A stretch of 64,000 nucleotides of DNA from Telmatactis stephensoni (Eukaryota > Cnidaria > Anthozoa > Actiniaria > Isophelliidae). Under the pieces are notes generated by a model. The model ran no database searches. It worked only from the letters and a program-made list of their open reading frames with translations, and was not told where the DNA came from. Where the stretch lies: NCBI GenBank assembly GCA_029948255.1, contig JALIZF010001614.1, positions 248,001-312,000 of the forward strand. Reading direction: 5' to 3'. The translations under genes were made by a program, and so were the position numbers. Shown here one piece after another: positions 13,721 through 62,320 of this stretch (positions are counted from its first letter, which is position 1; each line of letters opens with the position of its first letter).

Positions 13721-13731
13721 AAGTCATGTAC

Positions 13732-16357
13732 CTGTTACGAATGTTGTTACTGCAGCCATAAGAATTGCAGATCCAATATGCGATAATGAATAACGCACTC
13801 GTTCTTTCCTGTCGTCCTTATTCGGTGCAAGTCGATAAGCTACACCATAATGCAGGGTAAAGTCGATAGAAAGACCAACAGATACTGACAGCACAATAGA
13901 CTCCAACACACTAAGCTGCCATCCTATCAGTACAAGTACACCAACGGTGATTGCCAGGATGCCAATAATGGTAATGATAGCATATACACTGATGAAGATG
14001 TTTAAAGTGGTCAGCAACATCACACCAAAGGCAATCCCTATGGAGATACCCATTGATGAAATTGTACCCTTCTGAAGACTGTACTGCAAGCTGTACATGT
14101 CAAGATATTTACAAACAACCGAGCCATTTTTCAATTTGGGAGGAGCATCGGAGAGCTGCTTGCTTGACCAATCTTTCAATTGATTCCAGAATCGATCCAT
14201 TTTGTCGTATTCCGCACTCCAAGTTACATTAGAGAAAAAGTACATGGTCATGACTCTGACTTTACCACTTTTAATGTCGTAGTATCTTTGGGGTGACGTT
14301 ATCTGTCCTAAACATTTTTCTACGACGTCTTTAGGATATGGAAAACTTGTGTTGGCACAACAAGGGTTGCTGCTGGGTAGAGTACACTTACGAATGATAT
14401 CTTGCATGAAGCAGAGTGATCCCCCGGACCGCCAGGTACTGTGAAAGAACGACTGACTTGAAAGACTGTTACACAATGAGAGCAACCACTTTTGGGTCTC
14501 TGCTGTGAAATCCAACCCAAATGCATCATCGTATTCAAAAGTTCCTTTGTCATCTGGATCCAAATGATTGCCATTATCTTGTGCCTTCAGCCCCCATACC
14601 AACTCGATCCACATCCCCCCCTTACTTTCACTAGCGGAACGAAACTGTTGCCTTATATGAAGATTGTATTGCTCAATTGTACTGCTAGACGAAAAAACTT
14701 GGAATTCTTTACTTGTTGGCAATTGGAAGCCGGGATAAACCAAACTCACGCACAAAAACCCAATGGTCAATCCAATGAACAGAAAAATCCACAAAAAGTG
14801 CAGGCGCTTCTTGAGTACTGCATTAGGTAACCAGTTTTCGAATAGCTTTTGGCTAATTTTGGAGAAAAATGAGCTATAATTAGGAATAAAGTGACATGGA
14901 AAATCGATGCCCCAGCAGATACGACATGCAAGGCTTTGGTCGTTGGCCTCTCTTCTTCCCGTCCTATTGACTGTTTTAGAAATGTCTTGGATGTCTCCTC
15001 TTTCATCACACCTCTCAATTTTCTCATTGTCTGGTTCAGACCTGGGCCTGTCTTCGATGTCTTCGTATCTTGGTTCCCCAGCTCTGGTTTTCCAGTTAAT
15101 CTCATGCCTGAGTTCTTTTGGGATTTGGTCAATCGTCCGTTTGCGAACCCATCGTTCATGCAACATTACAATAATTGGAAACCACGTTATCATTAATAAA
15201 TAGTTGGTCAAAATTGATAGACCAGCGTAGATGCCGAACGCCTTAATAGAAGTGATGTGAGATCAAAGATTGGCAAAAAACGCGGCTGACGTAGTGAAAC
15301 TGGTGACAACTCCTGCATTGGGACTCGCAAGTTTCGTCTGCCTGAAGATATCATAGTAGACAAAGGCATCATCGGCTCCAATTCCCACAAGAAATACCAG
15401 AGTGACGAGATTCAAGAATGGAAAAAACTTGATTCTAAAGACAACGTTATATAGAAAGTACGAGAGTGCAAAAGCCAAAAGGACAGTCAACATTGCACAG
15501 AACGAAAGAATGATAGACTTCAGGAACTGAAGAAACACATGATCAATAATACAAACACCAGAGCAATTCCAGCGTATTTCGCATTGTCTAGAATAAGCCT
15601 GTCAAAAAGTCTGAATCTGAAGCGTCTGAAGTAAAATGCAACTACTTTGACACAATTGTATTCTGGAAATGAGTCCTTGAGGTGTTTCTCATATATATAA
15701 TTGTGGAGGTCATATCAACGCCACTCAATTGGAGAATAAATCATCGAATACTTTAGACTGGTCTGGGATGGGGTTTTCAGAAACTCGCTGTCAGTCAGTT
15801 CATGCAGGATGATAACGACGGCGCGGTTGAAACTACAAATGCATGGAACAGTTGGACAACCTTTAGGTCCTGCAGAGAATTTGTCAAATTTTGTACTATT
15901 ACATGTACAGTCTTTCGTAAGCAGTCCTTGAGCAAAATATACTGAGCAGTTCTGAAAATCTTTCAAAGCTGCATTTACATCCTGGGTAGTTAGTGCATCA
16001 CATCCTGGCTTGCCTCTAAACTGAGCAACAAGTTCACCTAACGATAAACTTTTGCAACACTGAGGACAAGCTCCATAGTAATACCAATAATATTCACGGG
16101 GGACAGATTTCATAATCTTCTTCTCCAAGTGACACATTGACTTCAAATTTTCTGCCGTGAAAAGGTTTCCTGATGTCGATTGGAATACAAGCCGATCAGA
16201 GTAGCCGTAGTACAACCTCGGGCAACTTGAGCCGACTACTGAGCTACGACGTTTTCTATGAACCGAGGAGGACAAAGCCCCGTGCAGAGCTAGACGCCTC
16301 AAAAAGTTTATGGGTATTCATTCTGTTACTGAGTTCTGTTCCTCTTGGTTCAAAACC
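13732..16357 (-). pseudogene. Dispatched-like copy 2, large exon, broken
   Basis: The acceptor (ttccttcttatag) at 16359-16358 and donor ACAG|GTACAT at 13732/13731 bound 2.6 kb homologous to the exon at 1-888 and beyond. Recognisable parts are GFEPRGTELSNR; the Cys-rich loop; GIGADDAFVYYDIF, the first RND GxxxD-type motif (about 15370); and SVGLSIDFTLHYGVAYRLA, the second (about 13850). Four lesions break it: a frameshift near 16302, TGA at about 15715 where copy 1 reads AGC, a frameshift near 15535, and TGA at about 15263. A 495-codon frame (15211-13724) stays open, so loss is recent or that part alone is used. No TM1 exon is present upstream. Confidence 0.75.
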
Positions 16358-17216
16358 CTATAAGAAGGAAATCAAACAATTAGACCAGATGTGAAGGGGT
16401 GTCTCTAGGAAACAGCTGTTCACCATTGTTGCCTTTCGTGACGTCACATATTTTCACAGTGGCAGCGAAACGCATAGAAAGGTTTATACTTCATGACTGA
16501 ATGTCCGCATAGTCGCTCTTTGGGTTAGGTTTAGAGTAAATATTAGGAAGACGACTATATGGCATTCAGCCATGAAGTAGTTACCCATAGAATGGAGTCC
16601 AAGTAGTAAGGGTCAAAAATATCCCCAATTGGCTCAAATCTCAAATAACTGTTTGGCTAAAATTGTTTTGTATTGGTCAGTTAGGTGGCTATATATCTTA
16701 TGTATTGGTCAGTTAGGTGGCTATATATCTTATGCCAGAAATCCATTGTATGGATAAAATCTTGAAGCAATTTTTGACAATTGTCAAGATGAACAAAACC
16801 CTTTTCTATGGAAGTAACTTTCACCCTACGAGGTCTGATAAAGCAGGCTACGATGTTTCCTGATGTGAAATTTCAGTCTTTTTTTTTTGAAAATGACCCC
16901 TAAAAGGTATCTGAGTGGGAGTGGCAACAATTCATTTCTACTCTTAAAAGGTACCAATTCAAAAACAATAATGGATTAAAGTAATGAAACACTTTGTTAT
17001 CGATGTGCTTTGTCCCTGACCCCCCCCCCCCCCCCCCCTGGAGAAAAATAATGAGAACTCTTTCAAACCACAATTTTCTGGAGTAAACTTTAATGCTAAT
17101 AATTGCACCAAATTTTAGGAGTTACTCGAATGTTTTCTGTTTTCTGCCTGTGATAAATTATCGGGTAATCTTCAAGTGGCATTCAATGCAACAGTGTGAA
17201 AAATGTAAATAAGTAA
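16358..17216. other. Region upstream of copy 2: repeats only
   Basis: It holds a TGACGTCA palindrome (16439-16446), an inverted repeat at 16487-16580 (arms sharing ACTTCATG and CATTCAG), a 32-bp sequence duplicated in tandem (16671-16702, 16703-16734), and a run of 19 C (17020-17038). No first exons for copy 2 were found. Confidence 0.6.
16671..16734. repeat. Perfect 32-bp tandem duplication
   Basis: Two identical adjacent copies begin TATTGGTCAGTTAGG. Confidence 0.9.
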
Positions 17217-17251
17217 GAGGCCGAAGATTTCTGATCTTTGAACTTTTTAGT

Positions 17252-18262
17252 TTCAAAGATCAGAAATCTTCGGCCTCAAAAGTAGAAATGAAAGAGTTAT
17301 ATAGGCTGTTTAAGAATCAAAACTCAAAAGTACATCAAAACATAGATAGTCCGCAAACAATAGATCAATTCATAACTATGAATGAAAACCAAGATCCACA
17401 CCTTAATTCAGAAATATCAACTCAAGAAATTTCAGACGCTATAAAAAGACTTGAAAATGGTAAATCACCTGGTAAATACAATATTTTGAATGAGTTGCTA
17501 TTGCGAAGAACATCTAATATCTTCACTAACACGACTTTTCAATATAGTATCATTTCGAATCATTTCCCTGAAGAATGGAGTTATGGTTTTATTATACCGA
17601 TATTTAAAAAAGGAGACCCAAGTCTTGCGGAAAATTATTGTGGTATAACTTTGTTATCATGTTTCGGGAAATTGTTTCCTCAAATTCTTAACAAAAGACG
17701 TTTTAATATTATTTAGAAACTAATGAGATATTACCCAGTGAACTATTGGGCTTTAGAGCTAAACACAGTACAATTGACAATATTCTAATTCTCAAAACAC
17801 TGGTAGATAAATACGTGAAAAACAAAAAGAAAAAAACAAAAATTATCTGTTTACGTGTTTTGTGGATTTTAAAAAGGCACTTGACTCGATTCCGAGAAAT
17901 AAATTATTTGAAAAAATCAGGAAGATTGGAATGTCAAGTAACTTTTATGCTGTGCTCACCTCCTTGTATTCCAATGACAAATCAGCAGTGAAAATTGATG
18001 AAACAGTTACGAAGAGTTTCAAATGTTACAAAGGAGTTAAGCAAGGGTGTATAGTATCTCCCACACTATTTAATATATTCTTACACGATTTACCAGAAGT
18101 TCTCAATGATGATGCGTCGAACCTAACAGTGGTAACTAACTATAGAATAAAAGGTCTTTTGTATGCAGATGATTTAGTTTTGATCTCACAAACGAAGTCG
18201 GGTCTTCAACATCAATTAAACAAACTACAATATTTTTGTGATGTGTCAAAAATATGTTACTA
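17252..18262 (+). pseudogene. LINE reverse transcriptase, frameshifted
   Basis: The frame starts inside the hairpin and runs to 17716 with GKSPGKYNILNE, PEEWSYGFIIPIFKKGDP and GITLLSCFGK. It shifts near 17700 (GFRAKHSTIDNILILK), again near 17835 (FVDFKKALDSIPRNKLFEK), and then carries CYKGVKQGCIVSPTLFNIF and the catalytic LLYADDLVLIS (about 18160). At least two frameshifts make it inactive. Confidence 0.85.
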
Positions 18263-18628
18263 ATTTGGACAAAACTAAAATTATGGTTTTTAACAACAGT
18301 GGCAAAAGAATGAACAATTTTGAATTCTATCTTAAAAAACTAAACTTGAGAATGTGAAAAGCCATAAATATCTAGGATTAAACTTTAATACTTTTGGAAC
18401 TTTTAACAATGCAAGAGAAGAATTAAAGAAAGATTGCGTTAAAAGCACTATTTAAACTTAGAAAAGATCTTGGAAGTCACTTTTTAGAACAGATATCTCC
18501 TAACTAGTAAAACTAATAACTCTCTAATTAAACCTATTCTGTTATATGGAAGTGAGGTTTGGGGCGTTGATATCAAGGACAACATTGATAATGATCCTGC
18601 CGAAACGGTTCATACAAAATTTTGTAAA

Positions 18629-19426
18629 ATGTTACTTGGAGTGAACAAAAGAGCGTCCAATAATGCATGTAGATCTGAACTCGGATTAATTCCTTTGAGA
18701 GTCGACGCAAAACTGAGAGTAGTAAAATTCTGGATTAACTTCGTGATCTCCGACAAAACAAAATTATCTCACTTAACTATACAGGACTGCAACCATGCTA
18801 ACACCCCATGTAGCTGGAGTAGAAAAGCAAAACCTATTTTGGATAAATTGGGTTACAGTTTTGTATGGAATCAAAAGTTTGACAAAACAAAAAAGAAAAT
18901 AATAGTTAAGCAAATAAAACAAAGACTAGAGGATATTGAAATACAAGTTTGGTTTGAAGAAATTCACAACGATATGGGTAGGAAAGACTCCCAAAAAAAT
19001 AAACTTAGAACTTATAGAACCTTTAAAATAATCTATAAGCAAGAAAATTACCTTAAAGGGGTCAGCAATATCAAGCATAGAATAGCACTAACAAAACTAA
19101 GAATTAGTAACCACTACTTACAAATTGAAAGGGGGAGACATTCACGTCCTTATATCAAAGCAGAAGAAAGAATATGTCCTATATGTGAACAAGGAGTTGA
19201 AGATGAAAAACACTTTCTTCTAAAATGTCCCCCCTATTCAACCAAAAGAAAAGAATTAATAAATAAGATAAATACAATCACAAACAAAAAACTTGAATTC
19301 TTAAGCGATGAAGAACAATTCCAAATTTTAATTAATCCAAATGAAAAAATACAAAAAATTATCGCAAAATATGTTTACGAATGTTTTGAAGAAAGAAAAG
19401 GAATTTTAGCACAAACAAACGGATAA
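18629..19426 (+). pseudogene. LINE C-terminal domain
   Basis: This 265-codon open frame begins LLGVNKRASNNACRSELG, which normally follows the reverse transcriptase, and contains CPICEQGVEDEKHFLLKCP, a CxxC...HxxxxC knuckle typical of LINE C-termini. The interval 18263-18628 linking it to the RT is frameshifted. The start is a codon-frame boundary, not a true initiator. Confidence 0.8.
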
Positions 19427-42851: not shown

Positions 42852-42912
42852 ATGACGATGCGAGGTGCTTTTCTTCATCTTTTGATTCTCATGGTTATCG
42901 CCATGACAGCAG
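42852..42912 (+). CDS. LRR receptor-like gene, exon 1 (signal peptide)
   Basis: The ATG at 42852 gives MTMRGAFLHLLILMVIAMTA, a clear secretory signal peptide, ending in phase 1 at the donor G|GTTAGA (42913). The frame joins exon 2 to give GGCPSPCKC. It predicts an extracellular or membrane-anchored protein. The intron begins with a 28-bp tandem duplication (AAGTGTTTCTTTG...) at 42920-42976. Confidence 0.75.
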
Positions 42913-44582: not shown

Positions 44583-44697
44583 GTGGCTGTCCTTCACCGT
44601 GTAAATGCTACTATCGTGACGGAGACTACTACACTGACTGTAGTTCGAGAAATCTGACAAAAGTCCCTCGAGGCATAGAAAACATTACAACTAACTT
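44583..44697 (+). CDS. LRR gene, exon 2 (N-terminal cap, LRRNT)
   Basis: The acceptor (ttttgcttccag) at 44582 and donor AACTT|GTAAGT at 44697/44698 bound 115 nt. It encodes CPSPCKCYYRDGDYYTDC followed by SSRNLTKVPRGIENITTNL, the Cys-x3-Cys-x-Cys...Cys cap that precedes LRRs in extracellular proteins. It ends in phase 2, matching all four downstream LRR exons. The architecture resembles Slit/LRR-Ig/TLR-like extracellular LRR proteins; the C-terminal part is outside the window. Confidence 0.85.
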
Positions 44698-44800: not shown

Positions 44801-44906
44801 GGGGAGGGAGGGAGGGAGGGAGGGAGGGAGGGAGGGAGGGAGGGAGGGAGGGAGGGAGGGAGGGAGGGAGGGAGGGAGGGAGGGAGGGAGGGAGGGGGGG
44901 GGGGGG
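44801..44906. repeat. (GGGA)n array
   Basis: This is about 93 bp of pure GGGA/GGAG followed by a G run. The Pro/Ser-rich antisense frame is an artefact of the array. Confidence 0.95.
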
Positions 44907-48470: not shown

Positions 48471-49150
48471 AGCCCGCACAAACGATACAATATCTTTGAT
48501 ATGAGATGTATTTTTACTTCTTCTGCCATATATAAAAATAAAAAGTTGAACGAATCCATCGGAGATTCGAGCCTGTAACCTTCCATTTTGAACGCGATCG
48601 CAAAGCCATAATGTTCAGGAGCTGAACTTGGGCTGCCTGTTGGTACTGAAGAGATTTGCTGCTTCGTCGACACAAAAAAGCTAACATTTAAACTCATGAA
48701 AGTATCGTCGATTCGTAAATTTCAAAATGAAGAGGCTTTTATATTTTACCTTGATTGATACTCGTGTGAAGCTGTTATAACGCAATGACTGCATTTTATA
48801 GTGCAGTTTAATATAATATATATATAATGTATAATGTAATATTTTGACATTTTAGAGTGACGTGTCTATCATTATTAGATTTTATTGTTTAGATATATGG
48901 CCTGAAGGTATTGAACAGGTCCAATGTAGTTGTTATAAATTTTATGATCTATATCAGTTGCATATTAATTTGCTTTGTCACATATTTATATATAAATAGT
49001 TTTTATAATTCTTTTTATAATTTTCATAGATTTTTCAATAAAAGACTTCGTTTTTTATAGTGCACTTTAACTTACTAAACGTCCCTGACTCATGAAAATA
49101 TTGCATGTTTTGCTCAGAAGCTCGAGACTTGCTCGCGTTGCCTCGATTTC

Positions 49151-50843
49151 GACGCTAGACTGATAGATAGAAAACCTAAACCTAGACTCGCGCACTCCAC
49201 TTATATTTCCCGTAGATGATCGAACGCGTAAAATTATCGAGATGCACTCGGGTGCCTGGATTTTACTGAACAAATAAAGACTGACTTACCAATGTAACCG
49301 TTTACCTCCAACTTGCGATGTTATTATTACTTTGAGTCGCTGCTCATCTATTTGCTCTGGTGGATTCCTTAACGTAAAACCACTTATTATTCTGAATCGA
49401 TCAGTCGGCGTGGTCGTTGTTTACTACTTTCGTCATTGTTTATCCACAGATCAATAGACCTCTTTACGCTGTCGTGCGCAATTTTGAATTGGGACAAACA
49501 CGCAATAATTTTTAGAAATTCCTAGCACTTTCACTTATTACATGCAATTCCCCTCTGTTTGGATGGATTTTCAAAGTTTGGCATATTTTTAAAAGGTAAC
49601 GTCGATCTTCTTTAGGACTTCTACAATAAAAATTGGGAGGCTATTTTGTCGGGAAGAAAAAGCATTTTTGAACCATTCGTGAAAAATAGGCTTTTGCAAA
49701 AATATAGTTAAATCTCTTACATTACTCTTATTTTCAGTCCCACAACTGATGTGCATATACCTTTTGTTTCTTGAAGTTTAGATTTTCAAAATCCATCAAT
49801 CCAAAATCCACAGCGTGAAGAGGTCAATCAGCAACAACAACCTGAACATTTTTACCCACAAACCTCTTCACCAACAACAAGCGACTTGTTAGTATATTGC
49901 GATATGACTAGTTGTTTGTTTGTTGGTTTCGACAACAGAACTGAAAACCTTTTCATTTTCATACCTTTTTGAATTTTGGTATCTTTTTGTTACTTTAATG
50001 AAAACCGGCAAAGCTGTGCTGTATATATTATTTCAATTAATTAAATTTTAGCCCCAGTCAGTACAATCGTTTATTCTGTATATAGTTACTAAAACATGAA
50101 TATTAAACATTCCTTTCCTAGAGTTCTCAGGAACAACCAAATCTCCAACCTGGATAAAGACCTATTTGCTAATCTTACTAATCTTCAGATTCTGTAAGTA
50201 TAAAATATTGCTTTTAACAACTTAAAAGTTGTTAAGGTTAGAACGTGATTATATTAGAGTCAAAAGTTTGTGCATGACACGTCTAGAGTTGCTCAAACGT
50301 TGAATGAATCGAAAAGAAGCAAACTTTGAAAATGTTGGACGTATATATACTAACACTTAAAAGACCTTTAACAATCATTTTTTATTATAGATATCTGTAT
50401 TGAAACCGCATTTCTATATTTTGAGCGATGCAGGATAAATTCCACGATGCAATTGTTCCGTGCAGTTTGTATCGTAACTCCACGACTTGAAAACTAATGC
50501 CATCTCGTTTCCAGAACTCTATTCCCTCTCAGTTACGCATGCGCGACGAAAAAATAAGGCTCTGGAAAAATCCAATACCGGAAGCCAAAATTAGGCTATT
50601 TCACCACCTGCGCAGTATGAACGTTTTGTTCAAAATCTTCAACCTTACCTGATTGGTCGCTATGCAAAGCAAAATGAAGTTAAAAATAGAACCTCTGTGG
50701 GACCTTTTCTTCAAAGATTGTGTAGGTCACAGGAATGGAATAAAAACTCAAGTTTTTATTTTTATCGGTTTACTGCTGGAAGAATTTACACATGGCCTTG
50801 GAGGATTCGAAGTAATTTTGATTCGAATTCAACGATCGACTAC
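49151..50843. repeat. LRR unit U1
   Basis: It runs from CGACGCTAGACTGATAG to the next occurrence at 50844. It carries the ACCTCTTTACGCTGT inverted repeat (about 49457-49833), LRR exon 1, an intron hairpin (50214-50235) and a truncated TIR element. It has the short allele at 49667 (no GTTTTCGAAATAAAAC insert). Confidence 0.8.
50122..50193 (+). CDS. LRR exon 1 (single 24-aa repeat)
   Basis: This 72-nt exon has acceptor tcctttcctag and donor CT|GTAAGTA, phase 2 at both ends. It reads VLRNNQISNLDKDLFANL then TNLQI plus a split Leu, one canonical LRR (LxxLxLxxNxI). Joining to exon 2 gives TTNL-VLRNNQIS. It can be skipped or included without shifting the frame. Confidence 0.85.
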
Positions 50844-52569
50844 GACGCTAGACTGATAGATAGAAAACCTAAACCTAGACTCGCGCACTCCACTTATATT
50901 TCCCGTAGATGATCGAACGCGTAAAATTATCGAGGTGCACTCGGGTGCCTGGATTTAACTGAACAAATAAAGACTGACTTACCAATGTAACCGTTTACCT
51001 CCAACTTGCGTTGTTATTATTACTTTGAGTAGTAGCTCATCTATTTGCTCTGGTGGATTCCTTAACGTAAAACCACTTATTATTCTGAATCGATCAGTCG
51101 GCGTGGTCGTTGTTTATTACTTTCGTCATTGTTTATCCACAGACCAATAGACCTCTTTACGCTGTCGTGCGCAATTTTGAATTGGGACAAACACGCAATA
51201 ATTTTTAGAAATTCCTAGCACTTTCACTTATTACATGCAATTCCCCTCTGTTTGGATGGATTTTCAAAGTTTGGCATATTTTTAAAAGGTAACGTCGATC
51301 TTCTTTAGGACTTCTACAATAAAAATTAGGAGGCTATTTTGTCGGGAAGAAAAAGCATTTTTGTTTTCGAAATAAAACATTCAGTGCACGAATTTTCGAA
51401 ATGATAAGAACCATTCGTGAAAAACAGACTTTTGCAAAAATATAGTTAAATCTCTTACATTACTCTTATTTTCAGTCCCACAACTGATGTGCATATACCT
51501 TTTGTTTCTTGAAGTTTAGATTTTCAAAATCCATCAATCCAAAATCCACAGCGTGAAGAGGTCAATCAGCAACAACAACCTGAACATTTTTACCCACAAA
51601 CCTCTTCACCAACAACAAGCGACTTGTTAGTATATTGCGATATGACTAGTTGTTTGTTTGTTGGTTTCGACAACAGAACTGAAAACCTTTTCATTTTCAT
51701 ACCTTTTTGAATTTTGGTATCTTTTTGTTACTTTAATGAAAACCGGCAAAGCTGTGCTGTATATATTATTTCAATTAATTAAATTTTAGCCCCAGTCAGT
51801 ACAATCGTTTATTCTGTATATAGTTACTAAAACATGAATATTAAACATTCCTTTCCTAGAGATCTCAGTGACAACCAAATCTCCAACCTGGATAAAGACC
51901 TATTTGCTAATCTTACTAATCTTCAGGTTCTGTAAGTATAAAATATTGCTTTTAACAACTTAAAAGTTGTTAAGGTTAGAACGTGATTATATTAGAGTCA
52001 AAAGTTTGTGCATGACACGTCTAGAGTTGCTCAAACGTTGAATGAATCGAAAAGAAGCAAACTTTGAAAATGTTGGACGTATATATACTAACACTTAAAA
52101 GACCTTTAACAATCATTTTTTACTATAGATATCTGTATTGAAACCGCATTTCTATATTTTGAGCGATGCAGGATAAATTCCACGCTGCAATTGTTCCGTG
52201 CAGTTTAATTTGTATCGTAACTCCACGACTTGAAAACTAATGCCATCTCGTTTCCAGAACTCTATTCCCTCTCAGTTACGCATGCGCGACGAAAAAATAA
52301 GGCTCTGGAAAAATCCAATACCGGAAGCCAAAATTAGGCTATTTCACCACCTGCGCAGTATGAACGTTTTGTTCAAAATCTTCAACCTTACCTGATTGGT
52401 CGCTATGCAAAGCAAAATGAAGTTAAAAATAGAACCTCTGTGGGACCTTTTCTTCAAAGATTGTGTATAAAAACTCAAGTTTTTATTTTTATCGGTTTAC
52501 TGCTGGAAGAATTTACTCATGGCCTTGGAGGATTCGAAGTAATTTTGATTCGAATTCAACGATCGACTA
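50844..52569. repeat. LRR unit U2
   Basis: Its layout matches U1, with the long allele (46-bp insert beginning GTTTTCGAAATAAAAC at about 51364) and a 16-bp loss near 52467. Its right boundary has the same junction as U1/U2. Confidence 0.8.
51860..51931 (+). CDS. LRR exon 2
   Basis: It has the same exon structure and phase as the exon at 50122. It reads DLSDNQISNLDKDLFANL then TNLQV. Compared with exon 1, all four base differences change the amino acid, at exposed beta-strand positions (V to D, R to S, N to D, I to V). Confidence 0.85.
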
Positions 52570-54110
52570 CGACGCTAGACTGATAGATAGAAAACCTAAA
52601 CCTAGACTCGCGCACTCCACTTATATTTCCCGTAGATGATCGAACGCGTAAAATTATCGAGATGCACTCGGGTGCCTGGATTTTACTGAACAAATAAAGA
52701 CTGACTTACCAATGTAACCGTTTACCTCCAACTTGCGATGTTATTATTACTTTGAGTCGCTGCTCATCTATTTGCTCTGGTGGATTCCTTAACGTAAAAC
52801 CACTTATTATTCTGAATCGATCAGTCGGCGTGGTCGTTGTTTACTACTTTCGTCATTGTTTATCCACAGATCAATAGACCTCTTTACGCTGTCGTGCGCA
52901 ATTTTGAATTGGGACAAACACGCAATAATTTTTAGAAATTCCTAGCACTTTCACTTATTACATGCAATTCCCCTCTGTTTGGATGGATTTTCAAAGTTTG
53001 GCATATTTTTAAAAGGTAACGTCGATCTTCTTTAGGACTTCTACAATAAAAATTGGGAGGCTATTTTGTCGGGAAGAAAAAGCATTTTTGAACCATTCGT
53101 GAAAAATAGGCTTTTGCAAAAATATAGTTAAATCTCTTACATTACTCTTATTTTCAGTCCCACAACTGATGTGCATATACCTTTTGTTTCTTGAAGTTTA
53201 GATTTTCAAAATCCATCAATCCAAAATCCACAGCGTGAAGAGGTCAATCAGCAACAACAACCTGAACATTTTTACCCACAAACCTCTTCACCAACAACAA
53301 GCGACTTGTTAGTATATTGCGATATGACTAGTTGTTTGTTTGTTGGTTTCGACAACAGAACTGAAAACCTTTTCATTTTCATACCTTTTTGAATTTTGGT
53401 ATCTTTTTGTTACTTTAATGAAAACCGGCAAAGCTGTGCTGTATATATTATTTCAATTAATTAAATTTTAGCCCCAGTCAGTACAATCGTTTATTCTGTA
53501 TATAGTTACTAAAACATGAATATTAAACATTCCTTTCCTAGAGTTCTCAGGACCAACCAAATCTCCAACCTGGATAAAGACCTATTTGCTAATCTTACTA
53601 ATCTTCAGGTTCTGTAAGTATAAAATATTGCTTTTAACAACTTAAAAGTTGTTAAGGTTAGAACGTGATTATATTAGAGTCAAAAGTTTGTGCATGACAC
53701 GTCTAGAGTTGCTCAAACGTTGAATGAATCGAAAAGAAGCAAACTTTGAAAATGTTGGACGTATATATACTAACACTTAAAAGACCTTTAACAATCATTT
53801 TTTATTATAGATATCTGTATTGAAACCGCATTTCTAAATAAGGCTCTGGAAAAATCCAATACCGGAAGCCAAAATTAGGCTATTTCACCACCTGCGCAGT
53901 ATGAACGTTTTGTTCAAAATCTTCAACCTTACCTGATTGGTAGTTAAAAATAGAACCTCTGTGGGACCTTTTCTTCAAAGATTGTGTAGGTCACAGGAAT
54001 GGAATAAAAACTCAAGTTTTTATTCAAGTTTTTATTTTTATCGGTTTACTGCTGGAAGAAATTACCCATGGCCTTGGAGGATTCGAAGTAATTTTGATTC
54101 GAATTCAGCG
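52570..54110. repeat. LRR unit U3
   Basis: It has the short allele as in U1. It lacks about 130 bp at 53836, removing the left end of the TIR element, but keeps the element's right half into the following tail. Confidence 0.8.
53542..53613 (+). CDS. LRR exon 3
   Basis: It reads VLRTNQISNLDKDLFANL then TNLQV. It differs from exon 1 at two bases (N to T, I to V), both amino-acid changing. Splice sites and flanks are identical to the earlier units. Confidence 0.85.
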
Positions 54111-57100
54111 ATCGAGAGTTTGAAAAAAATATTCGTTTCGGGTCAGTGATATCCAAATTAAACCCTAAAATAAAAGCAGTTCACGAGAAGAATCATGCGT
54201 TTGCAAGCTTCAAGAAACAGCTCTTGCACATTAATATTCCATTGGTCAATATTTTGATGGCTAGATGTTCTAGGTCTTTTCTAGTACATAGTGTTTTCGT
54301 TAAGAATCGACAGCTTCACGTGAACTTCCGGTCTCTCGCTTTGTTTTCTGTAAGCCACCAATCACCAAACAGGAAATTTGGATTTTCCGCGCATGCGTAA
54401 GAGGGAATAAGGTTCTGGGAACGAGATTGGGAACGAGACTGACACTAATGAAAAATTAAACGTCTGTGCATGCGTGCATTATACGATGTTTTCCTACGAA
54501 ATGTGTGAGTTTTAGCTTGAAATAAAATGTTCCTGTTCTCGGTGTGTAGTACATAAAATGTCTCTTGTATACTTTTGTGTGACAAAGAAATTGCATTAAT
54601 GAAGACATTATGTGAATACTGGCCCTACGTTTCAAGACTTGACCTTGAATTTTGACATTTGGTGAAAACTATTGTTGAAGGCAAGCGTAAAAGCGAAATT
54701 AGCAGTAGTTTACAATAGCGCGAAGACGAGACTACCAGCATGCGCAGACGTTTTTTACTAGTGTCCACGGCGAGATCAGTTGTAGCAATAATTGCACGTG
54801 CGGCCTTGCAGGTACTATAGTGCTCGGAAATGTGTATGTAACAAACATCTTTGTTGTCAACTGAAACCGGGAACTTGCACACACAATCTCAACAAAATAA
54901 GTTTTGAGGAGTGACAAGAACTGTTTTTTAAAAGTTAAAAGGAAAAAGGTATAAAAGTTGGTCAAAAAGTAAGCAAGATTTTCATTTTCAGAATCTGTAA
55001 GCGCGAGTTCTTTGTGAAATGGGATGTTGCACATTGTTTCTCACACAATGTTTTGCATAGTCGATTCTAATAAGTCAACTACGAACCTGGAGCCCGTTTT
55101 CTCGAAAGATCCAATATACCTTTACGGAACCGTTAACTTGGCGCAAGAGATACGTTTTCGAGTGTTTCTCGAAGCGAACGTTAATATTTAATTCTAATTT
55201 CTATGATTTTACAGGCAAGTGTGCGGGTGATTGAGCACTCCAGGAATATTTCCCGTAAATTATCGAACGCGTAAAATCATTGACATTTTGACATTGACAT
55301 TTTTTGATTTGTCATTTACACATAAATTTACACATTGAATGAAATATAGTTGTGTTTTCTACAAAATAAAAATATAATTAAGTATTTGGCAAAGACAGAG
55401 TATGGCAAAAAATCACATTAAAAAAACACATTCACACAAGAAAACACACACAAAAATAGAAATGGCGAGGTGATCTAAAAGAAACCCCTAGGCTTATGGA
55501 ATTTAGATCCCCTCAGTCTTTAATCTAGTCTTTAAAGACAGGGGTGGGTGCCTTGGTTTTACTGAACAGATAAAGACTAACTAACGAACGTAACCGTTTA
55601 CCACCAACTTGCGTTGTTGTTATTACTTTGAGCCGGTAGCAGCTCATCTATTTGATCTAGTGGATTCCTTAACTGGCGGACCGGAAAACCACTTCTTATT
55701 CTGAATCAGTCTGCGTGGTCGTTGATTATTGCTCTCGTCATTGTTTAGATTTTGAGCTATACAGGATAAGTTCCACGCTGCAGTGGTTCGTGCAGTTTGT
55801 GTCGTAACGACACGGTAAAAACACTAATGAAAACGGTCTGCGCATACGAGCATATTACGATGCCGTTTTCTTACGAAATGTGTGAGTTTTAGCTTGAGAT
55901 GAAATGCTCGTCTTCTTAGTGTATACATAAATCGTACACTTTCGTGTGTCAAAGAAATTGCATTAATGAAGGCATTCGGTGAATACTGACCGGCTTACGT
56001 TTCAAGAGTACTAAAGAGTTGACCTTGAGTTTTGACGTTTGGTGAAAACTATTGTTGAAGGCAAGCGTAAAAGCGAATTTAGCAGAAGTTACCAAAAGCA
56101 CGAAGACGTGACTTGAAGCATGAGCATCGACGATTTTCACTAGTGTCAATGGCGAGAACAGTTGTAGAAATAATTGCACCGTGAGCCCTTGCGAGTAGTA
56201 CAGTACTTGGAAATTTGTATGTAACAAACGTCTTTGTTGTAAACTTAAGTCGGGAATTTACACACACAATCTCAACAAAATAAGTTTTGGGGAGTGACAA
56301 GAATTTTTTGAAGTTAGCCAAAAAGCAGGCAAGACTTTTGATTGCCGAATTTGTAAGTGCGAGCTCCTTGTGAAATGGTTGGCTGCACATTGATTTTACA
56401 GAATTATTTGCATACTCGATTCTAATATCTCCAATACGAACCTGGAGCCCGTTTTCTCAAAAGATCCTATAACCTTTGCGGACCCGTTAAATCGACGCAA
56501 GAGTTAGGTTTTCGAGTGTTTCTCGAAACGCACGATTATTTCAATTTCTATGATTGTACAAGAAAGTTTACAGGTGATCGCGCACTCCAGGAATATTTCC
56601 CGTAAATTATTGAACGCGTAAAATTATCGGGTCTTTAAAGACACGCGCGGCTGCCTGGACTTTACTGAACAAATAAAGACTGACTTACCAATGTAACCGT
56701 TTACCTCCAACTTGCGATGTTGTTATTACTTTGAGTAGCAGCTCATCTATTTGCTCTGGTGGATTCCTCAACGTAAAATCACTTTTTGTTCTGAATCAGT
56801 CGGCGTGGTGGTTGTTTATTACTTTCGTCATTGTTTATCCACAGATCAATAGACCTCTTTACGCTGTCGTCCGCCATTTTAAATTCCGACAAACACGCCA
56901 AAAGTATTAGAAACTCTCATGACTTTGAAAGGCCTACTATAATTCCGCTCTGTTTTGATGGATTTTCAAAAATTCTCAGTTTTTGAAAAGATAAACTCGA
57001 TCTTCTTTTATAGGACATTTACTACGATGAAAATTGAAAAACTTTCGGCCTGCAAATTTTCGAAATGATAAGAACCATTCGTGAAAAAGAGGCTGTCTTT

Positions 57101-57237
57101 AAAATATAGCAAAAATACTTAGATTGCTGTTATTTTCAGTGCAACAATAAATAATGGTGCATACCTAAAGTTGATTAAAGTTGAAATTTTGAAAATCGAA
57201 TAAAACAGAGCGGAGTTACAGGGCATATTGTAAAACT

Positions 57238-57316
57238 GGACTGGACTGGACTGGACTGGACTGGACTGGACTGGACTGGACTGGACTGGACTGGACTGGA
57301 CTGGACTGGACTGGAC
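57238..57316. repeat. (ACTGG)n microsatellite
   Basis: A pure pentanucleotide array of about 79 bp lies near the end of block 1. Confidence 0.95.
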
Positions 57317-57525
57317 TCAAAATCTGTAAAACATGGACTGGACTATAAAAATCTGTAAAACCTGGACTGGACTCAAAAAATCTGTAAAACATGGACTGGA
57401 CTGAGAGAAAAATCTGTAAAACATGGACTGGACTGAGAAAAATCTGTAAAACATGGACTGGACTGAAAAAAAAATCTGTAAAACATGGACTGGACTGAGA
57501 AAAATCTGTAAAACATGGACTTGAG
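57317..57525. repeat. ~30-bp tandem repeat grown from the ACTGG array
   Basis: About six units of AAATCTGTAAAACATGGACT with GGACTGAGA-type spacers of variable A length occur directly after the array. The repeats are degenerate and contiguous, not spacer-separated. Confidence 0.85.
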
Positions 57526-58255
57526 CGAATAGTAATACGATGTTGTTATGACTTTGAGTAGCAGCTCATCTATTTGCTCTGGTAGCACTGTTGAAAGGCC
57601 ACATCCTCGCCCAATCTCGCAGCGAGATTGGGAAAGATTAAGCGAGAATTGGGCTTTCAACAGGCCTTCTTGTGAATCCACTTCCTATTCTGAATCAGTC
57701 GTTGAAAATTACCTTCGTCATTGTTCATCCACAGATCATTAGACCTCCTAACACTGTCGTCCGCCATTTTGAATTGGGACAAACACGCAAGAATCATTTT
57801 GACTTGCCACAATTCCGCTGTGTTTTGATGGATTTTGAAAATTTGGCATTTCTTGAAAAGATAACGTCGATCTTCTTTTGGACTCGTACTATGATGAAAA
57901 TTGGGAGGCTATTTTTTGAGGAAAAATGCGGTATTTTTGATGAAAGGCGGCTCTTTACTTCCTGATGATGACTGAAATTGTGCGTCTCGACAAAATTTAA
58001 TAAAGTCTCAAAGTCTGTGCATTTTAGAATCAGCGTCTCGAATTTTGATTTGTCGCCACTCGAATCTTAAATCATTTGTATTGTGTATTTACCTCTTGGA
58101 AGATCGGAATTTTCCTGATAAAAGTAATAGTAATTACAGTCGAGGTAGGATTTTTCTGTAGGTAACTGTGATTTTTGAGTTACAGATAGACTTCGAGCTA
58201 TGTCCTTTTTTAGTTGAGTTACACGCTCGAACACCCATTTTTCTGAGACAGCGCC

Positions 58256-58283
58256 AAGAGAGCATAAATATTTACGCTCTCTT
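58256..58283. mobile_element. 28-bp palindromic insertion with 9-bp target duplication
   Basis: AAGAGAGCATAAATA pairs with its inverse to form a 28-bp near-perfect palindrome. GACAGCGCC occurs on both sides (58247-58255, 58284-58292), while block 1 has one GACAGCGCC (46142-46150) and no insert. This is a precisely dated miniature insertion. Confidence 0.75.
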
Positions 58284-60569
58284 GACAGCGCCCACTTTGA
58301 CATCAATCCCTTATCTCGATCCTATTAGTCGAGAAATATGTTTTCGAGTTCACTTTTGAAAATAAACCCGAAAAAACGAAATAACGGTGAAAAAGAAAAC
58401 AAAATCTCGAGAAAATAACACATTAAAAACTACAAAGTAATAGCTTATGATTAACAGATAGTGTAATAATACAAAATCCGATAAAATCGCGCTCCACAAT
58501 TAATGTCATAGAAATAAGCCTTTACCTTTATGACTTTCCATACCTTTATCCATACCAGAATCCTCTTAATTCAATAATCTTTCATATTCAAATTTAAAAA
58601 TCCCTGAAGAATACAAACAGTATATTCTTAAAGCAGCAAATGCTAACATCTGTGCATTTCTCCAACTTCTATTGTCTTGGCCGGACTAATGGATAAGTTT
58701 GAAAGGATAATTTCTAGCTCTTCATACTTCTGCACTCGAATGTGATGTTCCGAAAAACTTTGGAGAGAATATATATACGACTCTATTTATGAGAGAGGTA
58801 GCCCTAAGCCAGGTTAAAACCGTAATTGAGGCCACTTCCGTCCAGCGGCTCGCTCATACTCGTCATGTTATCACTTGCTGTTTAAAGGCTTATTGTCGTG
58901 GTGTACTTCACAAATTCAAGGTGGTTTTGAGTTGCCTGTTCTCTTATTGACACACTCTTGACGTCATAAAATGTTCAAAACTCAAATGGAATCACGAGCG
59001 CAGCGAGTGGTGTGGTCATAGCTTCAAAATAGAAGGAGATTGCAATTCACATATTGCCTAGTAGTTTTACATCCAAACTTTCCAAGTATATTTCTGAAAA
59101 TCTCATAAGCTTTATAAGATTTTCACGGACAGTCATCTATATGAACCTTGACGTTTTTGAGCAAAAAAATCGTACGTTGAAATCTTTTTGGTTACCAGCG
59201 TCGTCTCAAAAACATTTCGAAAGACAAAGAACTCAACAAATCATTTTCAAGACTGGTTGACGTTGTTGATGGATCTGTAGCTTCAAAAACATTCCCCTTA
59301 AAACTGAGTCATTGAAATTATGTATGTCTTCGGTAGGACTGCTTAGCAATCTCTCCAAAGTCGGAAAACAAGAATCGTCTCAAAATTGAGGGACTTTTAT
59401 GATTTGTAAGACAGACAACAACCAAAGAAAAACATTTCAAGGTTAAATGCGGGATGAAAGAAAATGTGAAGTCAAAAAGTCTCTTGTGCATATTAGATGA
59501 GGTATTTTTATTTAGAATTGATGACTGTTGAAAAATATACATTTTTGTGGTAAAAACTGTGGCCAATAATTAAGTTGAGTACAAATTAACTTCGAAAAAT
59601 TGATTCTAACACGTGTAATCGGATAGAAAGCCAATTTTAAAATGAACCTTTTTCTTTTTAAAAAAGGCATATCGAGTTTGTTTAGTGGCTGACTAGTGTT
59701 TTATGAAGCAATTATTTTATTAATAGCGACATTTTGCTGCAGAGAGGAACAGTTTTTGCATTTGTTTATAGGTTCGCGCCAGTGTGTTTGTGGGGTTACA
59801 ACCTCAAATTGACAATATATATATACACACACAAAATCTAGCCAAAACATCAAGCAATGGCTGAATGGTTTTCTGAGATGAAGCCCGCACTAACGATACA
59901 ATATAATATCTTTGATATGAGATGTATTTTTACTTCTTCTACCATATATAAAAATAAAAAGTTGAATGAATCCATCGGAGATTCGAGCCAGTAACCTTCC
60001 ATTTTGAACGCGATCGCAAAGCCATAATGTTCAGGAGCTGAACTTGGGCTGCCTGTTGGTACTGAAGCGAGATTTGCTGCTTCGTCGACACAAAAAAGCT
60101 AACATTTAAACTCATGAAAGTATCGTCGATTCGTAAATTTCAAAATGAAGAGGCTTTTATATTTTACCTTGATTGATACTCGTGTGAAGCTGTTATAACG
60201 CAATGACTGCATTTTATAGTGCAGTTTAATATAATATATATATAATGTATAATGTAATATTTTGACATTTTAGAGTGACGTGTCTATCATTATTAGATTT
60301 TATTGTTTAGATATATGGCCTGAAGGTATTGAACAGGTCCAATGTAGTTGTTATAAATTTTATGATCTATATCAGTTGCATATTAATTTGCTTTGTCACA
60401 TATTTATATATAAATAGTTTTTATAATTCTTTTTATAATTTTCATAGATTTTTCAATAAAAGACTTCGTTTTTTATAGTGCACTTTAACTTACTAAACGT
60501 CCCTGACTCATGAAAATATTGCATGTTTTGCTCAGAAGCTCGAGACTTGCTCGCGTTGCCTCGATTTCG

Positions 60570-62320
60570 ACGCTAGACTGATAGATAGAAAACCTAAACC
60601 TAGACTCGCGCACTCCACTTATATTACTTATATTTCCCGTAGATGACCGAACGCGTAAAATTATCGAGATGCACTCGGGTGCCTGGATTTTACTGAACAA
60701 ATAAAAACTGACTTACCAATGTAACCGTTTACCTCCAACTTGCGTTGTTATTATTACTTTGAGTAGTAGCTCATCTATTTGCTGTGGTGGATTCCTTAAC
60801 GTAAAACCACTTATTATTCTGAATCGATCAGTCGGCGTGGTCGTTGTTTACTACTTTCGTCATTGTTTATCCACAGACCAATAGACCTCTTTACGCTGTC
60901 GTGCGCAATTTTGAATTGGGACAAACACGCAATAATTTTTAGAAATTCCTATCACTTTCACTTATTACATGCAATTCCCCTCTGTTTGGATGGATTTTCA
61001 AAGTTAGGCATATTTTTAAAAGGTAACGTCGATCTTCTTTAGGACTTCTACAATAAAAATTGGGAGGCTATTTTGTCGGGAAGAAAAAGCATTTTTGTTT
61101 TCGAAATAAAACATTCAGTGCACGAATTTTCGAAATGATAAGAACCATTCGTGAAAAACAGACTTTTGCAAAAATATAGTTAAATCTCTTACATTACTCT
61201 TATTTTCAGTCCCACAACTGATGTGCATATACCTTTTGTTTCTTGAAGTTTAGATTTTCAAAATCCATCAATCCAAAATCCACAGCGTGAAGAGGTCAAT
61301 CAGCAACAACAACCTGAACATTTTTACCCACAAACCTCTTCACCAACAACAAGCGACTTGTTAGTATATTGCGATACGACTAGTTGTTTGTTTGTTGGTT
61401 TCGACAACAGAACTGAAAACCTTTTCATTTTCATACCTTATTGAATTTTGGTATCTTTTCGTTACTTTAATGAAAACCGGCAAACCTGTGCTGTATATAT
61501 TATTTCAATTAATTAAATTTTAGCCCCAGTCAGTACAATCGTTTATTCTGTATATAGTAACTAAAACATAAATATTAAACAATTCCTTTCCTAGATGGCT
61601 AGAGAACAACCAAATCTCCAACCTGGATAAAGACCTATTTGCTAATCTTACTAATCTTCAGGATCTGTAAGTATAAAATATTGCTTTTAACAACTTAAAA
61701 GTTGTTAAGGTTAGAACGTGATTATATTAGAGTCAAACGTTTGTGCATGACACGTCTAGAGTTGCTCAAACGTTGAATGAATCGAAAAGAAGCAAACTTT
61801 GAAAATGTTGGACGTATATAAACTAACACTTAAAAGACCTTTAACAATCATTTTTTACTATAGATATCTGTATTGAAACCGCATTTCTATATTTTGAGCG
61901 ATGCAGGATAAATTCCACGCTGTAATTGTTCCGTGCAGTTTGTATCGTAACTCCACGACTTGGACACTAATGCCATCTCGTTTCCAGAACTCTATTCCCT
62001 CTTACGCATGCGCGACGAAAAAATAAGGCTCTGGAAAAATCCAATACCGGAAGCCAAAATTAGGCTATTTCACCACCTGCGCAGTATGAACGTTTTGTTC
62101 AAAATCTTCAACCTTACCTGATTGGTCGCTATGCAAAGCAAAATGAAGTTAAAAATAGAACCTCTTTGGGACCTTTTCTTCAAAGATTGTGTAGGTCACA
62201 GGAATGGAATAAAAACTCAAGTTTTTATTCAAGTTTTTATTTTTATCGGTTTACTGCTGGAAGAAATTACCCATGGCCTTGGAGGATTCGAAGTAATTTT
62301 GATTCGAATTCAGCGATCGA
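60570..62320. repeat. LRR unit U4
   Basis: It lies in block 2, with the long allele as in U2 and an intact TIR element at its end (61973-62672). It carries LRR exon 4. Confidence 0.8.
61595..61666 (+). CDS. LRR exon 4
   Basis: It reads WLENNQISNLDKDLFANL then TNLQD, in the second 12-kb block. It is the most divergent copy: eight base differences from exon 1, seven of them in three changed codons (GTT/TGG, AGG/GAG, ATT/GAT) and one silent. Only three or four differences occur in the ~200 nt of adjoining intron. Confidence 0.85.

Follow-up and report, generated by a model that had tools for sequence, protein, structure and literature searches.

The LRR exon array and its gene

The window, a 64-kb stretch of DNA corresponding to bases 248001-312000 of contig C340, was analysed within the 483-Mb assembly (1782 contigs). 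It contains a signal-peptide exon, an LRRNT exon and four 72-nt LRR exons, u1-u4, at the following window positions.

42852..42912, + strand: signal-peptide exon (MTMRGAFLHLLILMVIAMTA), read and translated; donor GTTAGA
44583..44697, + strand: LRRNT exon (GCPSPCKCYYRDGDYYTDCSSRNLTKVPRGIENITTN), read and translated; ends in phase 2
49143..54110, + strand: three tandem units of about 1.7 kb with u1-u3, starting near 49143, 50836 and 52563
50122..50193, + strand: LRR exon u1, VLRNNQISNLDKDLFANLTNLQI
51860..51931, + strand: LRR exon u2, DLSDNQISNLDKDLFANLTNLQV
53542..53613, + strand: LRR exon u3, VLRTNQISNLDKDLFANLTNLQV
60570..62313, + strand: unit with u4, belonging to a longer duplication of the region
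61595..61666, + strand: LRR exon u4, WLENNQISNLDKDLFANLTNLQD

The LRR exons have the ends given in the first-pass annotation, and each is flanked by the same acceptor (CCTAG) and donor (GTAAG) and is in phase 2 at both ends. The signal-peptide and LRRNT exons lie upstream of them on the same strand, with compatible phases. The LRRNT exon matches the Pfam LRRNT profile with E = 5e-4 and 20 bits, below the 25.8-bit cut-off. The LRR ectodomain matches the LRR_8 profile (E = 6e-49), and a DUF7630 match in the gene reaches 27.2 bits against a cut-off of 27. The Cys-rich/TM tail has 42 homologues, of which the best four, all Actiniaria (Actinia and Actinostola), are 61-81% identical over the Cys-rich region, DUF7630 and TM tail. 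All of the array and flanking exons are predicted, by their strand, phase and order, to lie on one transcript. The product would comprise a signal peptide, LRRNT, LRRs, a Cys-rich/DUF7630 region and, probably, a multi-TM tail. As part of the explanation favoured below, the window is likely to hold the 5' portion of a single long gene that encodes a predicted anthozoan surface receptor.

The array runs 64 kb beyond the window, bringing the copies on C340 to 14 (298-376 kb). Eleven are intact at 72 nt; of the others, two carry frameshifts that give lengths of 71 and 74 nt, and the third is truncated. With three of 14 exons damaged, that allele would be broken unless the damaged exons are skipped or are assembly errors. 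Searching the genome at the DNA level with u1 and its flanks gave at least 39 matches: 14 on C340, three on C1611, nine on C1326, 11 on C992 and two on C43. On C1326 and C992, 18 of the 20 exons measure 72 nt, the remaining two being longer by three bases and shorter by six, respectively. A ten-base-pair hairpin 3' of the splice donor is confined to u1-u4 and their C1611 copies. A protein-level search of the genome returned 79 matches, with identities of at most 64% on C43 and at most 45% outside these five contigs. Protein searches with the array repeats, which were subject to length limits and scored only the candidates with most shared words (7981 and 7978), yielded no relative of the array among the best 120 of 2042 and the best 120 of 4456 matches, these being generic LRR proteins of at most 52% identity.

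Divergence of exons, codons and introns

The exposed residues of u1-u4 were re-read as V/D/V/W, R/S/R/E, N/D/T/N and I/V/V/D, as first annotated, and the single silent change among the four exons was located in the CTC/CTA codon of the fourth. The constant exon core is indeed identical in all four, with a length of 55 nt (bases 13-67) rather than the roughly 48 nt first given. The zero to four flank differences described per pair rise to five on the upstream side when the fourth unit is one of the pair. Aligning the four units gave 11 variable sites out of 72 in the exon, 5/200 in the adjoining upstream sequence and 3/200 downstream; the rest of the ~1.7-kb unit is variable at 29 of 1437 ungapped columns (Fisher p = 1e-6 against the exon).

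The claim that the exons have diverged more than their introns holds in further copies, with a peak at the five x codons of the LxxLxLxx motif. Counts were made on 11 non-overlapping nearest pairs with intron divergence below 8%. Differences amounted to 49/165 nt in x codons and 97/5459 in introns, and the other exon codons were also slightly above the introns (19/594, p = 0.026). The first-pass reading would be refuted if silent changes were equally represented in further copies, but the same pairs show otherwise: 40 codon changes were replacing (27 in x codons, 13 elsewhere) and two were silent, both outside the x codons, with 23% silent expected (binomial p = 0.0013). The C1611 copies were omitted from these pairs, as were C992:861 and C992:3443, which represent loci already present at the end of C1326. 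Five of 37 aligned copies were left out of the codon counts owing to indels or truncation. The pair C992:6259/49401, left uncounted with an intron divergence above the 8% limit, differs at 43/427 intron and 16/72 exon positions, with seven replacing and three silent changes.

The excess is visible in individual pairs. Two 6.9-kb duplicates on C340, at 361301 and 368747, differ at 15/72 exon and 65/6811 flank positions; the values are 5/72 and 22/2480 for C340 368747 and 375771, and 9/72 and 21/2427 for C1326 36448 and 39029. Counter-examples also occur, with identical exons between differing flanks in C1326 10312/19151 (62/2312) and C992 11865/14853 (8/500).

Nei-Gojobori counting across the 51 closest pairs, which overlap, gave pN = 0.38 and pS = 0.21 in x codons, against 0.021 in introns, and pN = 0.019 and pS = 0.036 in the other codons. 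The multiple alignment behind these values misplaced the u3 intron (42/594); the counts were taken from unit or pairwise alignments instead. The raised pS of the x codons results from replacement of whole codons, many of which differ at two or three bases, as 16 of the 27 changed x codons do in the disjoint pairs. It favours some multi-base or conversion input and tempers the result for selection.

With two overlap copies removed, 27 intact exons from contigs other than C1611, 23 of them distinct, were used to assess variability per codon. The five codons of highest entropy among the 23 in the exon are 22, 0, 21, 2 and 3, and these coincide with the x positions of LxxLxLxx, also five in number; a random pick would give this set once in 33,649. 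These codons were chosen post hoc, yet they equal the x positions of the motif in PMC8226289, where the available text describes them as an exposed array on the concave beta-sheet. Placed by the motif, the variable residues would lie on the concave LRR face. The framework varies little overall, and its codons D10, K11 and T18 each encode one residue across the 23 distinct exons. Splicing would form every binding strand, since one exon ends with two x codons and the following exon opens with the other three.

Presumed haplotypes and exchange between units

C1611 is collinear with C340:288246-308351, mostly at 97-99% identity with one 1-kb block at 89%. The 3' end of C992 (101001-104952) is 98.4% identical to C340:404028-408000, and two pieces from the start of C992 that were compared with the end of C1326 show no mismatch, one of them having two gaps. 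C1611, C1326 and C992 look like a second haplotype, in which the link between C1611 and C1326 is absent from the assembly. Only three of the 11 intact C340 exons, u1-u3, are matched in protein sequence among the 19 intact exons of the second haplotype. The exon complement appears to differ in large part between the two copies of the gene, a pattern expected where a gene serves self/non-self or pathogen recognition.

Within u1-u3, the haplotypes show no mismatch at 216 exon bases or at 2392 flank bases, the latter with 8 gap columns. This part of the array is not diverging, which counts against the explanation favoured below. Elsewhere in the gene, the LRRNT exon has 13/114 mismatches plus indels, against 21/757 in its flanks (p = 1.4e-4), and the exon at C340:393774 has 8/72 against 10/605 (p = 2e-4). 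The allelic exons at 398094 (6/72, flanks 61/705) and 401210 (3/72, flanks 14/188) are not above their flanks, and that at 399302 shows a six-base in-frame deletion. No haplotype differences occur in the signal-peptide exon (0/56), the Cys-rich exon or the exons at 399628 and 399887. The excess in LRRNT and 393774 beside an unchanged signal peptide and Cys-rich exon speaks for the favoured explanation, the behaviour of 398094 and 401210 against it.

The array repeats are tandem duplicates of exon plus intron, and they appear to have been exchanged and homogenised. The unit at C340:361301 is a mosaic: every window from -300 to +372 places it nearer to 331476 than to 368747, and beyond about +570 six of seven windows place it nearer to 368747. 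Within the exon the four-gamete test fails for 126 of the 253 informative column pairs, a result that exchange or repeated mutation can produce. Taken with the mosaic introns, these failures indicate that units have exchanged sequence.

A probable recognition receptor, rival explanations and known systems

The first-pass annotation had offered diversifying selection or targeted gene conversion as the cause of the exon excess. Judged from the pair counts and the variability per codon, the former is supported as the best single account, and conversion or unequal exchange between units is seen alongside it. Its narrower form, conversion targeted to exons, fits the data less well: the one traced tract takes in several hundred intron bases, and such a tract alone leaves the exon excess unexplained. 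Exon-only conversion as the sole cause is rejected on these grounds; the multi-base codon changes leave room for short conversion, which is possible.

On balance, the locus probably encodes a highly polymorphic, germline-encoded recognition receptor on which diversifying selection and exchange between units have both acted. An array of cassettes with one LRR per exon would sit between the LRRNT exon and older LRR exons, followed by the Cys-rich/DUF7630 and TM parts. The LRR face may bind a changing partner, be it the cells of another individual, a microbe or a symbiont, and selection would then reward new binding surfaces, with signalling left to the constant Cys-rich and TM part. The germline is assumed to be where the diversity arises. 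A role in recognition or allorecognition is suggested, and the sharing of just three of 11 intact exons points the same way. If correct, the gene is a candidate highly polymorphic recognition receptor in sea anemones.

Alternatively, exon-sized or shorter conversion from donors elsewhere could have acted with little or no diversifying selection. The many x codons changed at two or three bases, their high pS, the four-gamete failures and the visible mosaic unit are all consistent with it. Nevertheless, besides the intron bases in the traced tract, conversion alone fails to predict a peak at five x codons with the residues of the L and N codons between them retained, or the ratio of 40 replacing to two silent codons, and it needs donor exons that had already diverged at the same codons. 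It is considered unlikely.

A VLR-like or Dscam-like generator of repertoires was also considered, in which symmetrical one-repeat exons would be picked by regulated splicing or somatic rearrangement. Since the intact exons are all of 72 nt and one phase, the frame would be kept under any choice of exons, and with the joints inside the binding strand each splice choice would give a new strand. The two frameshifted C340 exons, tolerable only if skipped, also fit selective use. The proposal is rated as quite improbable; if true, it would mean a combinatorial LRR receptor per cell or per individual in a non-bilaterian animal.

Positions x are variable in many LRR proteins. Relaxed constraint would leave them free to vary over a framework under purifying selection, and the little-varying framework agrees with this. 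Relaxation cannot exceed the intron rate, so the x-codon excess over the introns of the same pairs rules against it, and the invariance of D10, K11 and T18 counts against it as well; it is disfavoured as very unlikely. An origin of the exon differences in collapsed or chimeric repeats or in sequencing error, which the repetitive region, the uncollapsed haplotypes and the small frameshifts in two C340 exons might suggest, is rejected as scarcely credible, because u1-u3 recur base for base on the separate contig C1611 and errors would be expected in flanks and silent sites as well.

For the favoured receptor, the hnwd genes (het-d/het-e/het-r) of Podospora offer a close parallel. Their WD40 repeats are reported to undergo concerted evolution with positive diversifying selection at four interaction-surface codons per repeat, and strains to differ in repeat number and sequence (PMC1805685, PMC2873952). 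In the anemone, too, repeats appear to be exchanged and homogenised, with raised replacement at a few presumed surface codons per repeat. Unlike the fungal STAND proteins with their WD40 repeats, the anemone gene has LRRs, one per exon, separated by kilobase introns and encoding part of an animal protein with several predicted TM segments. The hnwd genes are reported to control non-self recognition, whereas for the anemone gene recognition is a suggested role. If the favoured explanation is right, the array is an animal LRR counterpart of the repeat-array strategy of fungal non-self genes.

As in lamprey VLRs, LRRNT and LRR modules are combined and the variable residues are mainly concave (for VLRs, as described in PMC3900441). 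VLRs are reported to be assembled somatically from incomplete cassettes (PMC13428168), whereas the anemone cassettes are complete exons with splice sites in one gene. The exposed variable positions of highly variable plant NLRs are likewise described as the x residues of LxxLxLxx (PMC8226289). Those proteins are intracellular and are compared between alleles, while the anemone gene varies also among tandem cassettes within the gene. The PRDM9 zinc-finger array is reported to share coding repeats with selection at recognition residues; unlike the anemone array, it is described as DNA-binding, minisatellite-encoded and meiotic.

Closer in sequence are Actinia LOC116294778 and its relatives (LRR/DUF7630 multi-TM proteins), which share the Cys-rich region, DUF7630 and TM tail. 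The Actinia protein P0122 differs from the anemone gene in having ordinary divergent LRRs without a homogenised array. When the related protein P0123 was examined in its AlphaFold model (mean pLDDT 73), the TM part had no convincing PDB match, a result that speaks for neither a new nor a known fold.

No comparable cnidarian LRR exon array was found in the open-licence literature, searched by word matching mostly of titles and the starts of abstracts. In the available text of a 2009 survey of repeat-rich Nematostella proteins, no LRR exon array was found, and Ka/Ks > 1 is reported for about 40% of 94 sequences (PMC2805694). Haplotypes of corals are reported to differ in the copy number of tandem genes, the units there being whole genes, not exons (PMC12314368).

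Hairpin downstream of the splice donor

A perfect hairpin of ten base pairs (TTAACAACTTAAAAGTTGTTAA) lies at window 50214-50235, about 20 nt past the splice donor of u1, the first of the four 72-nt LRR exons in the window. The same hairpin, TTAACAACTTAAAAGTTGTTAA, was found at the equivalent place after u2-u4 and in their copies on C1611, the collinear contig read as the second haplotype. In the other intact units, stems within the first 80 nt reach 6 bp at most.

LRRNT exon and related gene copies

The LRRNT exon (window 44583-44697) differs strongly between the window and C1611 haplotypes in its first half (CKCYYRDGDYYTDCSSRNL vs CTCRNLPRGRYKTDCGWRKL); the second half is the same in both.

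On C340, the contig that carries the window, the Cys-rich/DUF7630 exon located 3' of the array has a second copy, 94% identical and inverted, about 61 kb downstream (468004-468435, - strand), which is a neighbouring paralogue. No array exons near this copy were among the matches listed in the genome DNA search with u1 and its flanks. A related gene on another contig, C43 (8001-18000, - strand), has 72-nt exons with one LRR each that are not homogenised, and possibly offers a view of the state preceding expansion of the array.

Elements, repeats and other genes

Near-identical inverted Fic-domain ORFs are placed in intron space of the array (C340:334380-334982, + strand, the copy used for the domain scan, and 337538-338140, - strand). 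The array region also holds a minisatellite (C340 ~313548-316269) that translates as a YQVHRSMHHYMKK repeat.

Further features of the window
13724-15262, - strand: exon of a sterol-sensing-domain gene (sequence reading and domain scan), possibly patched-like
17213-19426, + strand: broken reverse-transcriptase-like ORFs (sequence reading only)
44802-44904 and 57235-57317: simple repeats, GGGA and ACTGG, in introns of the array gene
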